Shown here one piece after another: positions 11,532 through 15,998 of a DNA stretch of 64,000 nt. This stretch comes from Spirosoma aerolatum. GTDB lineage: Bacteria > Bacteroidota > Bacteroidia > Cytophagales > Spirosomataceae. A model generated the notes under the pieces. It was given only the letters and a program-made list of their open reading frames with translations. It was not told where the DNA came from and ran no database searches. The stretch lies in the NCBI RefSeq assembly GCF_002056795.1, contig NZ_CP020104.1, positions 6,643,501-6,707,500 of the forward strand. The letters are read 5' to 3'. The position numbers were made by a program, and so were the translations under genes. Numbering within the stretch: the stretch's first letter is position 1; each line of letters opens with the position of its first letter.

Positions 11532-12491
11532 ATGAAAATCAGAAAAGCCGTCATTACCGCAGCCGCACGTGGAGAACGTTTATACCCCGTTGCCGATACG
11601 ATACAGAAAGCCATGCTTCCCATCATCGATACCGATGGGCTGCACAAGCCCGTTATTCAGGCCATTGCCGAAGAGGCTTTTCTAAGCGGTATTGAAGAAA
11701 TCTGCGTGGTGTGTGCCCCCGGCGATGGCGACCGTTATATCAACGCCTTCACCTCCCTGCGTGATAACCTGATTAAATCCTATAAAAACGTTGACTGGGC
11801 TCAGGAGGAAGCCGAAAAAATTGATACCCTCATCAGTCGGGTTCGCTTTGCCGAACAGCCAGAACCGCTGGGGTATGGTCACGCCGTTTACTGTGCCAAA
11901 GACTTTGTGGCCGATGAGCCGTTTCTGCTCCTCCTCGGCGACTACCTGTATATCTCCAATCTGACCAGCAAACGGTGTGCTACGCAGCTCATCGAACTGG
12001 CTGTTCAGGAAGACTGCTCCGTATCGGCTGTCAACCCCACCATTGAGCATCAAATCGGGCGGTATGGCACACTTACGGGCAAGCATATACCCGGCATGAA
12101 TGGGGTATACCAGATTGAACGGCTTATTGAGAAACCCTCGCTGAGCGTAGCTGAGCTTGAACTCCAGACTCCTGGCCTGCGGGTTGGCTACTACCTCTGC
12201 TTCTTCGGTATGCACGTGTTTACCCCAACGGTGTTCAGCCTGCTGGAAAAACAGATCGCACAGGATGGTACAAATATTCCGCTGACACCGGCCCTTCAGG
12301 AACTGGCCCATATCGAAAAATATCTGGCGCTGGAGGTAAAGGGGAATCGATACGACTTAAGTGGGCGGCAGGGGCTTTTACGGGCGCAGATGGCCCTCGG
12401 TCTGGCAGGAGTGGCTCACGACGAAACGCTGACGTCGATGGTCGAACTATTAGCCGAAGCTAATTCGCGAAAGGCACAACTTACTCCCTAA
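11532..12491 (+). CDS. GalU-like sugar-1-phosphate nucleotidyltransferase
   Basis: A 319-residue protein of the NTP_transferase fold closest to GalU/UTP-glucose-1-phosphate uridylyltransferases. The nucleotide-binding loop reads AAARGERLYPVADTIQKAML, where GalU has AAGxGTRxLPxTK..PKxML; the Gly after AA is Ala here, while RL, the Gln-Lys pair and MLP are kept. EQPEPLGYGHAVYCAKD matches the GalU GLGHAV site and LLLGDYLY replaces the usual LLGDD. Expected reaction: NTP plus sugar-1-phosphate gives NDP-sugar. It lies 60 bases before the kinase-pyrophosphorylase fusion on the same strand, with no terminator between, so the two should act together. The changed loop and metal site leave the substrate or even activity open. 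Confidence 0.82.
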   Translation: MKIRKAVITAAARGERLYPVADTIQKAMLPIIDTDGLHKPVIQAIAEEAFLSGIEEICVVCAPGDGDRYINAFTSLRDNLIKSYKNVDWAQEEAEKIDTLISRVRFAEQPEPLGYGHAVYCAKDFVADEPFLLLLGDYLYISNLTSKRCATQLIELAVQEDCSVSAVNPTIEHQIGRYGTLTGKHIPGMNGVYQIERLIEKPSLSVAELELQTPGLRVGYYLCFFGMHVFTPTVFSLLEKQIAQDGTNIPLTPALQELAHIEKYLALEVKGNRYDLSGRQGLLRAQMALGLAGVAHDETLTSMVELLAEANSRKAQLTP

Positions 12492-12551
12492 CTAGCAGGT
12501 AGCCGAATCCACTGATCCCAAGAAGCGCTATTCTGTTTAGCCGAAATCAAC

Positions 12552-15500
12552 ATGAATATATTTATAGAAACCATTACGTCTACAGATCCTGCTATTCGTA
12601 ATCGATCCTTTTTTGACCTCAGCCGAAATTTATCTGCCCCTGGTTTACTAAAGGCGCTGCGCGAACTGGATGCCTTCCGAAAGTCGACTCCGAACCTGTA
12701 CGATAAAGTTAGAGCCATTCTTTTCCTGTATGCGGGTTTTCGTTTCTTCCTGATGGAAACCAACGAAATTCCGGCCATTGGAAAAATCCCCTACGCTGGT
12801 TTCGACGATTTGCTGTCGCGTCGGTTTGAACAGGCTATTGCTACATTTTTGCAGGAACTGGACAAGCAAGGCCCCAACGCTACTCTACTTAGTGCGCTGG
12901 CCGACAGCTATCATCAATTGTCGTTTCAGACGCTGGCCGATCAGGTTCGCAAAAGCGTCCGTTCCAGTAAAGGCAACCAGTGGATGTTTCGGGTAGGTCA
13001 TCAGGCTGAGCATCCGATTCGTATTCATCCGCGTCTGCTCCAACGCCCGGATAACTCCCTCTTCTACCCTATTCTGCACGAGCAAACCTCCGTTCGGATG
13101 GACTTAACCCATAGCGGTTGGTCAGACATTTTCTTTCTGGGTATGGACTATCCCGAAGGAGCCCGCGTCATCAATATTTCCATCGACTTAGGTGTATTCG
13201 GTCGTGATAAAGACATTCGCCCACCGCTGAACTGCTATGTCCGGGTCATTCCTGAACCCGTTCTTCGCCTGACTAGTGTCGATTTGAACACAACCAAAGA
13301 CGTTCACGACCTCGACGATCTGTTCAACTTCGGGAATGACTACCTGAGTCTGGTTAAAGCGGGCGTTATTGCTTCGGGGCTGATTCCACCTTCGTTCGAA
13401 GGGACGAATCAATCGCTGGCCGACATTCTGGCCCGGATTGTGGCGCCGGGCATGGGCATTGAACTGGTCACGAAAGTCAACGATATTCCGAAAGGTTCGC
13501 GGTTTGCGGTATCGACCAACCTGTTGGGCTCCATTATCAGCCTGCTGATGCGGGCTACCTGCCAAACCCAACGGCTGGAAGGTGGCTTGCAGGAAAGTGA
13601 GCGTCGGTTGGTAGCCTCCCGGGCTATTCTGGGCGAATGGATTGGCGGTTCGGGCGGTGGCTGGCAGGATTCGGGTGGCGTTTGGCCGGGCATCAAAGCC
13701 ATTCAGGGTACGTTTGCGCAGGAAGGTGACCCCGAATCTGGTATCAGCCGGGGAACGTTATTACCCCGTCACCGGGTATTACAGGGCGAAGAAATCCATC
13801 CCGACATTCAGGAGAAAATCATGCACTCGCTGGTACTGATGCATGGCGGCATGGCCTCCAACGTTGGGCCTATTCTGGAGATGGTCACCGAAAAATACCT
13901 GCTTCGGGGCGCTAACGAATGGAATGCCCGCCAGCAGACAAACCAGATTTTCGATAACATCCTGAGTGCCATTAAAGAAGGCGACATTAAGAAACTGGGC
14001 CAAAATACCGCCCGCAACTGGGAATACCCGATCAAAACCATTATTCCCTGGGCCTCCACGTATTTCACGGAACAGATCATTGCCAAAGCAAAGAAGCAAA
14101 TCGGCGACGATTATTATGGGTTTCTGATGCTGGGCGGTATGTCGGGGGGCGGCATGGGTATGTTCGTCAACCCAGCTCATTACGAAGACTACAAAGTACA
14201 GGTGCTGGAGATGCTTCGGAAAACAAAAAACGAGCTTTCCGACTCGCTGCCCTTTGCCATGGAGCCGGTCGTGTACAACTGGAGTATTAACAACAAAGGC
14301 ACCTGGGCTAACCTTCTGGAAGGGAATCAGGCCATGATGCCCGAACAATACTACGGTATTCAGGTATCGGAACTGGTCCGGAAAGATCCAAAGTCAATCC
14401 CTTACGTTCGACGGGCCGAAATCGATTACTTTACAACTTACTGCGATCAGAATAATCTGGCATACCCCCTGTTACGAACCATCGTCAGCAACTTGTTTAA
14501 AGTATCGGACCCAACTTCACAGGGCAACCGAAGCGTCGAAAACGAGAAAGCAGACCAGATCAAAAAAGAAAACGGGTTCGACTTCATTCAGCATAACGAA
14601 ATCCGGGAAGAACTGCAAAAAGGACGCATTGGATTATCGCGTAACCGGCTATCGGCCGAAACCACGATTGATGACGTACTGCCGGGTGACCTTGTCCCGC
14701 TTGAATCAATAACGTCGGCCATCCAGACGGGCGAAGCAGCCATACGAGCAGGTAAAGTGGGCATTATGGGGCTGGCGGCTGGCGTCGGTAGTCGTTGGAC
14801 CAAAGGGGCCGGGGTTATCAAGGCTATCAACCCATTCGTAGAAATTGACGGAGTTCATCGGAGTTTTCTGGAAATTCATCTGGCTAAAACCCGCAAAGTT
14901 TCCGAACGATACAACGCCCCTATTCCCTACATCGTAGCAACGAGTTACTTAACCCACGAACCCATCCGAAAAAAACTGACACAAACGGGTAATTTCGGGT
15001 ATCAGGGCCCCACTTATCTGTCGCCGGGCCGTTCGATTGGACAACGTTTTGTACCGATGGAGCGCGATTTACGGTTTTTGTGGGAAGATATGCCCCAGGA
15101 AACACTGGACGAGAACAAACAGAAAGTTCGGGATGCGGTGCGTCAATCGATGATTGCCTGGGCCAAATCGAAAGGAGAAGGCAGCGATTATGTCGATAAT
15201 ATTGCCGCGCAACGATTTTCGCCCCTGGGCCACTGGTATGAAGTCTCGAACCTGTTACGCAATGGGGTGCTGGCAAAGCTACTAGCGGAACAACCGCAGG
15301 TTGAAACGATCATGCTGCATAACATCGATACCCTCGGTGCCGATGTCAATCCAGCGGCTTTAGGTTATCACCTTGAATCGGGAAATACGCTTACGTTTGA
15401 AGTCGTACCCCGTCGTATCGAAGACCGAGGGGGTGGACTCGCCCGAGTCAATGGTCAGCTTCGGTTGCTGGAAGGGCTGGCCCAGCCCCGCGAAGAGGAT

Positions 15501-15902
15501 GAGTTGAATCTGAGCTATTATAACACCAATACCACCTGGATTCAGGTCGATCCATTGCTCCAGCTATTTGGCCTTACCCGCGCCGATCTGCAAACCAGCG
15601 ATGACGCCCAACTGGCCAAAGCCGTACGAAGTGTAGCCCATCGCATGCCAACCTACGTGACCATCAAAGATGTAAAATACCGCTGGGGACATGGTCAGGA
15701 AGATATATATCCGGTAGCGCAAATTGAAAAGCTCTGGAGCGATATGTCGGCCCTGTCCGATGTAAAGTGCGGGTATATTGACGTACCTCGCTATCGTGGT
15801 CAGCAGATGAAAGACCCTGCTCAGTTAGACTCCTGGGTAACCGATGGTAGCAAAGATCATGTAGCTTCGCTCTGTACGTTTGAACCGGCCGAAGTTCAAT
15901 AA
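12552..15902 (+). CDS. Fused L-fucokinase-like GHMP kinase / UDPGP-type pyrophosphorylase
   Basis: A 1116-residue cytoplasmic protein with two enzyme parts. The first half carries a GHMP kinase of the L-fucokinase type: VRMDLTHSGWSD (about residue 181) as the sugar-binding start, GSGGGWQDSGGVWPGIK (about 366) like the fucokinase GGGWQDQxGG loop, and LMLGGMSGGGMG (about 526) as motif 3. The second half is a UDPGP-type pyrophosphorylase: MGLAAGVGSRWTKGAG (about 739), HNIDTLGADVNP (about 923) and YNTNTTWIQVD (about 990). The likely reactions are sugar to sugar-1-phosphate, then to NDP-sugar, in one chain. Bacteroides FKP combines similar activities but with the pyrophosphorylase first; here the order is reversed and the pyrophosphorylase is of the UDP-sugar type. 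The sugar is unknown. Confidence 0.85.
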   Translation: MNIFIETITSTDPAIRNRSFFDLSRNLSAPGLLKALRELDAFRKSTPNLYDKVRAILFLYAGFRFFLMETNEIPAIGKIPYAGFDDLLSRRFEQAIATFLQELDKQGPNATLLSALADSYHQLSFQTLADQVRKSVRSSKGNQWMFRVGHQAEHPIRIHPRLLQRPDNSLFYPILHEQTSVRMDLTHSGWSDIFFLGMDYPEGARVINISIDLGVFGRDKDIRPPLNCYVRVIPEPVLRLTSVDLNTTKDVHDLDDLFNFGNDYLSLVKAGVIASGLIPPSFEGTNQSLADILARIVAPGMGIELVTKVNDIPKGSRFAVSTNLLGSIISLLMRATCQTQRLEGGLQESERRLVASRAILGEWIGGSGGGWQDSGGVWPGIKAIQGTFAQEGDPESGISRGTLLPRHRVLQGEEIHPDIQEKIMHSLVLMHGGMASNVGPILEMVTEKYLLRGANEWNARQQTNQIFDNILSAIKEGDIKKLGQNTARNWEYPIKTIIPWASTYFTEQIIAKAKKQIGDDYYGFLMLGGMSGGGMGMFVNPAHYEDYKVQVLEMLRKTKNELSDSLPFAMEPVVYNWSINNKGTWANLLEGNQAMMPEQYYGIQVSELVRKDPKSIPYVRRAEIDYFTTYCDQNNLAYPLLRTIVSNLFKVSDPTSQGNRSVENEKADQIKKENGFDFIQHNEIREELQKGRIGLSRNRLSAETTIDDVLPGDLVPLESITSAIQTGEAAIRAGKVGIMGLAAGVGSRWTKGAGVIKAINPFVEIDGVHRSFLEIHLAKTRKVSERYNAPIPYIVATSYLTHEPIRKKLTQTGNFGYQGPTYLSPGRSIGQRFVPMERDLRFLWEDMPQETLDENKQKVRDAVRQSMIAWAKSKGEGSDYVDNIAAQRFSPLGHWYEVSNLLRNGVLAKLLAEQPQVETIMLHNIDTLGADVNPAALGYHLESGNTLTFEVVPRRIEDRGGGLARVNGQLRLLEGLAQPREEDELNLSYYNTNTTWIQVDPLLQLFGLTRADLQTSDDAQLAKAVRSVAHRMPTYVTIKDVKYRWGHGQEDIYPVAQIEKLWSDMSALSDVKCGYIDVPRYRGQQMKDPAQLDSWVTDGSKDHVASLCTFEPAEVQ

Positions 15903-15906
15903 ATGT

Positions 15907-15998
15907 TTTTACCCAAAATAGAACACAGATTTTTAGGATGGTTATGATTTACACAGATCATAATCATCCTAAAAATCTGTGTTCTATTTTGGGTAAAA
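15907..15998. terminator. 92-base hairpin with 42-bp stem
   Basis: Arms 15907-15940 and 15965-15998 are perfectly complementary over 34 bp, and eight more pairs (one G-T) continue inward to an 8-base loop. It begins 5 bases after the stop of the fusion enzyme. It is far longer than an ordinary terminator and has no T-run after it on the plus strand. Confidence 0.7.

Follow-up and report, generated by a model that had tools for sequence, protein, structure and literature searches.

The window (the whole stretch of 64,000 nucleotides that was analysed) carries on its forward strand a pair of genes, each component of which belongs to a known superfamily. The first gene (11532..12491) encodes a GalU-fold protein of 319 aa, hereafter the partner. 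The second (12552..15902, forward strand) encodes a protein of 1116 aa in which a GHMP kinase is fused to a pyrophosphorylase. By ORF positions the gap between them measures exactly 60 bases (12492..12551). The sequence-only reading had described just such a GalU-like gene 60 bases upstream of the fusion, with an AAARGERL motif, and the motif does occupy residues 10-17 of the partner. A terminator-like hairpin with 20 counted pairs lies past the fusion stop (15929..15976, forward strand); it comes from a consensus scan only, which returned seven such sites in the region vs 5.1 in shuffles. ARAGORN found no tRNA in the window (1-64000), and no Rfam family reached its gathering score there. The genome (7.96 Mb) also possesses a canonical GalU (contig 1, 5494135-5494947) with an intact GFGTR loop and 33% identity to the partner. 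Among the matches listed, the closest named relative at the locus is Spirosoma sp. 48-14, with 99% identity.

Profile matches, PDB matches and residue mapping place an FKP-type GHMP kinase domain at residues 177-539 of the fusion (13080..14168). This region aligns with the kinase half of the FKP family (NCBIfam PRK13412, positions 612-934, E 2.5e-20), and the score of the fusion, 71.8 bits (73.9 in the genome search), is below the family cut-off of 721. Even so, no NCBIfam family other than FKP comes within E 1, and the PDB kinases matched by the fusion are all FKP (9iip, 5yys and 9iit, E 2.5e-10 to 1.9e-9). The C-terminal part exceeds the cut-off of Pfam UDPGP (PF01704; 52.4 bits vs 22), which is the only Pfam family above its cut-off in the fusion; the best stretch, residues 886-1006 (15207..15569), forms the UDPGP core, and the C-terminal part also matches eukaryotic-type UGPases in PDB. 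Residues 736-816 align with UGPases as well, and because this stretch is not significant on its own the start of the domain near residue 736 is placed provisionally. No Pfam domain of the N-terminal fucose pyrophosphorylase type was detected ahead of the kinase at E<=10. The regions 1 to about 170 and about 545 to 735 matched no family, yet both are conserved, the former over residues 1-160 (12552..13031). Profile and PDB matches thus agree with the proposal that the domain order is reversed, kinase first and pyrophosphorylase second, opposite to FKP, and that the pyrophosphorylase belongs to a family other than that of FKP. Homologues of the same order span the length of the fusion at 51-99% identity, which argues against a chance ORF.

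Catalytic residues were compared in the window's fusion and in those of 80 related loci (81 sequences); positions of the Bacteroides fragilis enzyme (BfFKP) were mapped through the PDB-match alignment, and the roles of its kinase residues are those given in PMC11982464. The equivalents of BfFKP R592, W599, D601, S719, E751, G759, Q761 and D762 are unchanged in 81/81. In the window's protein they include R182, W190 and D192 (for R592, W599 and D601; 13095..13130), S321 (for S719) and E362, Q372 and D373 (for E751, Q761 and D762; 13635..13670). Three positions differ: S720 is replaced by T (T322 in the window) and T602 by I (I193), each in 81/81, and A900 by S in 79/81, A being kept in two. The ATP loop at residues 312-323 (13485..13520), IPKGSR[FL]AVSTN, is family-specific and nearly invariant, and departs from the IPAGSGLGTSS of FKP. 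Equivalents of R592, D601 and D762 are reported to be nearly 100% invariant in FKPs (PMC12732313). However, the D767A mutant of TxFKP kept about 40% of its activity according to the same source (PMC12732313), which makes the invariance of D373 a less convincing argument for catalysis than it would seem.

In the UDPGP domain, too, the catalytic residues mapped by alignment vary little or not at all. Its phosphate-loop-like segment at residues 741-757 (14772..14822), LAAGVGSRWTKGAGVIK, contains the GxG[ST]R signature and K757. Within it G744, R748 and K757 are present in 81/81, G746 in 80/81 and S or T at position 747 in 81/81. Further along, H894, N924, D926, G961 and E974 are invariant (81/81), position 991 is N in 76 sequences and S in five, and K1039 and K1042 are kept in 80/80. 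Judged by these residues, both halves of the fusion look active.

The partner matches Pfam NTP_transferase (60.9 bits), hence its description as GalU-fold, and scores 143.7 bits against the GalU family TIGR01099, under the cut-off of 326.8. Our set of 83 partners consists of 76 from the related loci and the window's own, to which two unlinked proteins and four from Bacteroidota genomes were added (without G171 and G038); 78 of them cover the phosphate loop. At residues 10-30 (11559..11621, forward strand) the window's partner reads AAARGERL...QKAMLP, vs PAAGFGTRF...PKEMLP in the genome's own GalU. Across the 78 sequences G is found at position 12 in 39 and at position 14 in 58, whereas position 15, the T/S of GxG(T/S)R, is T or S in none; the window has ARGER. 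R16 is kept in 69/78. The lysine of the PKEML segment, K26, is K in 51/78, the window among them, R in one and deleted in 26. Outside the loop, Q109, which presumably touches the base, and D137 are kept in 79/79, E200-K201 in 82/82 and R273 in 83/83, and the position of D275 is N in 18/83.

Two types of partner can be distinguished. In type A (n=52, the window included) the loop keeps its length, with G14 in 52/52 and both R16 and K26 in 51/52. In type B (n=26) eight positions including K26 are missing from every sequence, G14 is found in 6/26, R16 in 18/26 and N at position 275 in 13/26. Changes at T20/R21 of the GalU loop cost about 500-fold, and GalF, whose GxG(T/S)R loop is broken by M and H, keeps little activity (PMC4643126); a Glu-Lys pair and two Asp are reported to be critical in a related GDP-mannose enzyme (PMC9168903). 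Metal and sugar-phosphate residues kept and a triphosphate loop changed are what one would expect of a product sensor, by analogy with GMPPA. Type B partners are most naturally read as non-catalytic, and the earlier suggestion that the GalU-like protein is possibly non-catalytic is strong for that clade, where part of the loop is deleted together with its lysine. It applies less to the window's own partner, which retains the R and the K. Since type A keeps G14, R16 and K26, and 18 of the 26 type B partners keep R16, weak catalysis by the partner is possible, above all in the window, whose type A protein may have weak or even normal activity.

The two genes are tightly linked. The partner lies directly upstream of the fusion on the same strand in 76/80 related loci, with a gap of -4 to 249 bases (median 33.5); in five of these loci (L035, L041, L042, L054, L065) the upstream partner runs into a contig end and is incomplete. 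Two of the other loci (L019 and L022) are uninformative, since their sequence starts at a contig end or close to one. The remaining two, L058 and L076, both from MAGs, have no partner upstream; their genomes hold one on another contig. Among 296 Bacteroidota genomes the fusion is present in seven, and the partner is adjacent to it in the same seven. At E<=1e-30 the partner search matched these seven genomes and one more (G067), where the match is a canonical GalU (380 bits). The gene pair, whose conservation had been put forward as a check, is not confined to this genome; the linkage shows functional coupling, not proof of a complex.

The histories of the two proteins also agree. Their pairwise identities correlate with r = 0.94 (71 rows including the window), which is not proof of coupling, as shared ancestry alone would give such a correlation. 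In a partner tree of 60 rows, whose alignment included the loop columns but neither 20 close relatives, five truncated sequences nor a GalU-fold protein from G001, type B forms one side of a branch (SH-aLRT 100). The deletion requires a single change on this tree, and therefore the segment was lost once. A FastTree phylogeny of the fusion (64 rows) contains a 26-row clade with support 100 that shares 25 of the 26 type B genomes; L076 is absent from this tree, and the partner of L065 is truncated. Three Planctomycetota adjoin the type B clade in both trees. After the segment loss the partner has been retained with the fusion across six phyla, going by record titles and kinship.

The family is widespread but patchy. 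Scanning a single genome for each species gave at least 593 matching stretches, 588 of them encoding a relative (these are stretches, maybe not distinct genes), from which the 80 loci, at 54-99% identity, were kept for comparison. They come from Bacteroidota, Verrucomicrobiota, Planctomycetota, Chloroflexota, Hydrogenedentota, Acidobacteriota, Armatimonadota, Kiritimatiellota, Lentisphaerota, Fibrobacterota and Ignavibacteriota; these phyla were read from record titles, a few from taxonomy. Many of the records are MAGs, and mis-binning may lie behind titles like Williamsia or Thalassobius. In a protein search the best 120 of at least 8000 candidates showed 79-97% identity over 99-100% of the query. 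Homologues of the fusion are common in databases and, where named at all, are usually given the automatic name UTP--glucose-1-phosphate uridylyltransferase. Patchiness is evident in Bacteroidota (7/296 genomes; an eighth match, in G243, is a protein of FKP length with E 1e-11) and within the genus of the window, where the fusion occurs in 15/36 genomes, or 15/32 when completeness of 90% or more and contamination of 5% or less are required. PF01704 matches seven of the 296 Bacteroidota genomes, all of them those that bear the fusion, and one copy, in G259, stands alone; in this sample the UDPGP domain occurs almost only inside the fusion.

Some irregular copies were also encountered. In one congener (G342, contig 1, 8079087-8082346) the fusion falls into two frames that part near residue 527, and the second of them contains a stop. 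A single plasmid record out of 72,556, from Hymenobacter volaticus (NZ_CP095065.1, L126 9001-12277), carries a copy; it matches in three pieces, has no CDS in the incomplete gene table and may be disrupted, and a sugar phosphate nucleotidyltransferase is annotated just upstream. As for mobility, the phage search added one weak match (20% of the query, 26.5% identity). An apparent three-domain fusion in L070 was rejected, as the DNA has a stop between the genes. Kinase-only candidates, in the best 120 listed, are all of 428-736 aa; 98/120 start within the first 10 residues of the fusion and their ends scatter over fusion residues 500-849. The ten that were read lack the pyrophosphorylase end, and several have an off-family tail, as after a frame shift. 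Given the scattered ends and odd tails we took these stand-alone kinases for broken or cut genes, although a real form is possible.

With the domains, the kept and changed catalytic residues, the co-occurrence and the matching trees as what the sequences offer, we give an even chance to the pair being a bifunctional sugar-1-kinase/NDP-sugar pyrophosphorylase with a dedicated, most likely regulatory, GalU-fold partner. The FKP-type domain would use ATP to phosphorylate C1 of a free sugar, and the UDPGP-type domain would couple the resulting sugar-1-phosphate with a nucleotide, UTP being the most likely one, into an NDP-sugar. Known UDPGP enzymes (UGP, USP and UAP) use UTP, which would make a UDP-sugar the default product of the fusion. 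The partner would most likely bind the fusion and sense the NDP-sugar or the sugar-1-phosphate, thereby setting the activity or stability of the fusion as GMPPA does for GMPPB. That the partner is regulatory at least in the type B clade would be the best reading of its residues.

Rather unlikely, in our opinion, is a pair in which both nucleotidyltransferases are catalytic and the kinase makes one sugar-1-phosphate that is converted into two NDP-sugars, or into one sugar carried by different nucleotides. Such activity would fit the window's partner, which keeps G14, R16, K26, Q109, D137, E200-K201 and D275, and the type A proteins in general with their almost invariant R and K. It is harder to reconcile with a loop that lacks T/S in each of the 78 partners covering it and with the eight-residue deletion, lysine included, in 26/78, where the gene is still retained with the fusion. 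The sequence-only reading had argued from two nucleotidyltransferases to one or two NDP-sugars; none of the 78 partners has an unaltered phosphate loop and 26 have lost part of it, which leaves this as the less supported part of that reading.

A broader form of the preferred reading, with a regulatory partner, is unlikely as a whole, although worth spelling out: the pair might form an NDP-sugar synthase of two components, widespread and so far undescribed. Its GalU-fold subunit, catalytically dead or on the way there and of another family than the catalytic domain, would sense the product and thereby regulate the kinase-UDPGP fusion, and the product may be an NDP-sugar outside the FKP pathways, for example a UDP-linked L-fuco- or D-arabino-configured sugar.

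We see only a slim chance that the pair provides an alternative GDP-fucose salvage route as a functional equivalent of FKP. The exclusive similarity of its kinase to FKP would agree with this, as would the window genome, where a profile search found no other FKP-like protein; on the other hand, the pyrophosphorylase is of the UDPGP family, the equivalent of T602, which contacts the C3-OH, is invariably I, and two genomes (G019 and G303) carry the fusion and a true FKP together. It is just as improbable that the fusion is a general UDP-glucose synthase in GalU's stead with the kinase as an add-on, for although the UGP-type core is conserved and GalU is above its family cut-off in just 5 of 20 chosen fusion-bearing genomes, replacement was rejected because this low count matches the phylum norm (6/296 Bacteroidota above the cut-off, 10/296 at E<=1e-70), GalU at E<=1e-70 is found in 2/7 fusion bearers vs 8/289 others, which is no avoidance, the fusion is patchy in the genus, and the window genome has its own canonical GalU.

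The proposed kinase-pyrophosphorylase with a regulatory partner resembles several known systems in part. Like FKP/FKGP of B. fragilis and Arabidopsis, the fusion combines a GHMP sugar-1-kinase and a pyrophosphorylase in one polypeptide and has the same mapped kinase residues; it differs by the opposite domain order, another pyrophosphorylase family and another ATP loop. In an unrooted kinase tree 12 fusion kinases and five single-domain kinases, which we take to be HddA-like heptose kinases, each occupy one side of a branch (100/100). Three FKPs lie between them, and the fusion stem is 8.2 changes per column long; being unrooted and with so long a stem, the tree is compatible with an origin from FKP and with other origins alike. 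A single origin with an N-terminal pyrophosphorylase is favoured for the known FKPs (PMC12732313), and consequently the kinase-UDPGP protein probably arose by a separate fusion event. The word UDP does not appear in the main text of that work on FKP evolution.

With the UDPGP family (UGP/USP, PF01704) the fusion shares GH, NxDxLGA, LLE and N-x-x-x-W elements that align with UGPases, whereas it has GxG[ST]RWTxGAGVxK with Arg, GHW for GHG and an attached kinase. The partner shares with GalU/GalF the fold and part of the site, and the GxG(T/S)R loop is broken in GalF too (PMC4643126), but the partner accompanies a fusion of another nucleotidyltransferase family and one clade is without the lysine-bearing segment. 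GMPPA is a non-catalytic subunit of nucleotidyltransferase fold that regulates the catalytic GMPPB (PMC11228364, PMC9168903). A regulatory subunit of the same fold is proposed here, in line with the linkage and the matching trees; GMPPA and GMPPB are paralogues, whereas our partner and catalytic domain are from different families. Zebrafish DrGKUP likewise joins a sugar kinase to a nucleotidyltransferase, but in it the pyrophosphorylase comes first and is of the short bacterial type, and the kinase is a glucuronokinase (PMC3938481). The pair is real and well conserved, and it is undescribed as far as the literature was searched: neither the pairing of the two genes nor a fusion of a GHMP kinase with UDPGP was found described, most subscription journals lying outside the search.

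If the preferred reading is true, many genomes carry a mis-named enzyme, as a sugar kinase goes unseen under the label UTP--glucose-1-phosphate uridylyltransferase, and the second protein of the pair is labelled GalU-like yet is not GalU. It would also represent a second, independent fusing of a sugar kinase to a pyrophosphorylase, and possibly a one-pot biocatalyst for NDP-sugars. The passage from type A to type B would then let one follow, in a natural series, how an enzyme becomes a regulatory pseudoenzyme next to a neighbour that remains active.

As to the substrate of the fusion, an L-fucose/D-arabinose-type sugar is a first guess only. Clustering of 486 neighbour ORFs from 55 loci gave two clusters that recur in three or more loci. 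Thirty of 179 near neighbours were scanned, 29 by Pfam and 10 by NCBIfam (nine common to both), and included a few glycan genes (PMT_2, flippase, GT2, NDP-sugar epimerase, RmlA) and many unrelated ones. The 55 loci clustered and 30 neighbours scanned gave no hint of a substrate. In two Hydrogenedentota a PMT_2-type membrane glycosyltransferase comes next after the fusion (L040 11318-13894 and L041 4086-6701); in L032 and L038 large unassigned proteins occupy that place. A gene that we take to be phosphoglycerate-kinase-like is found near the fusion in L062 (5527-6735) and three other loci. In these 4/55 loci it is encoded upstream on the other strand, at a distance of about 2.2-2.5 kb from the fusion.
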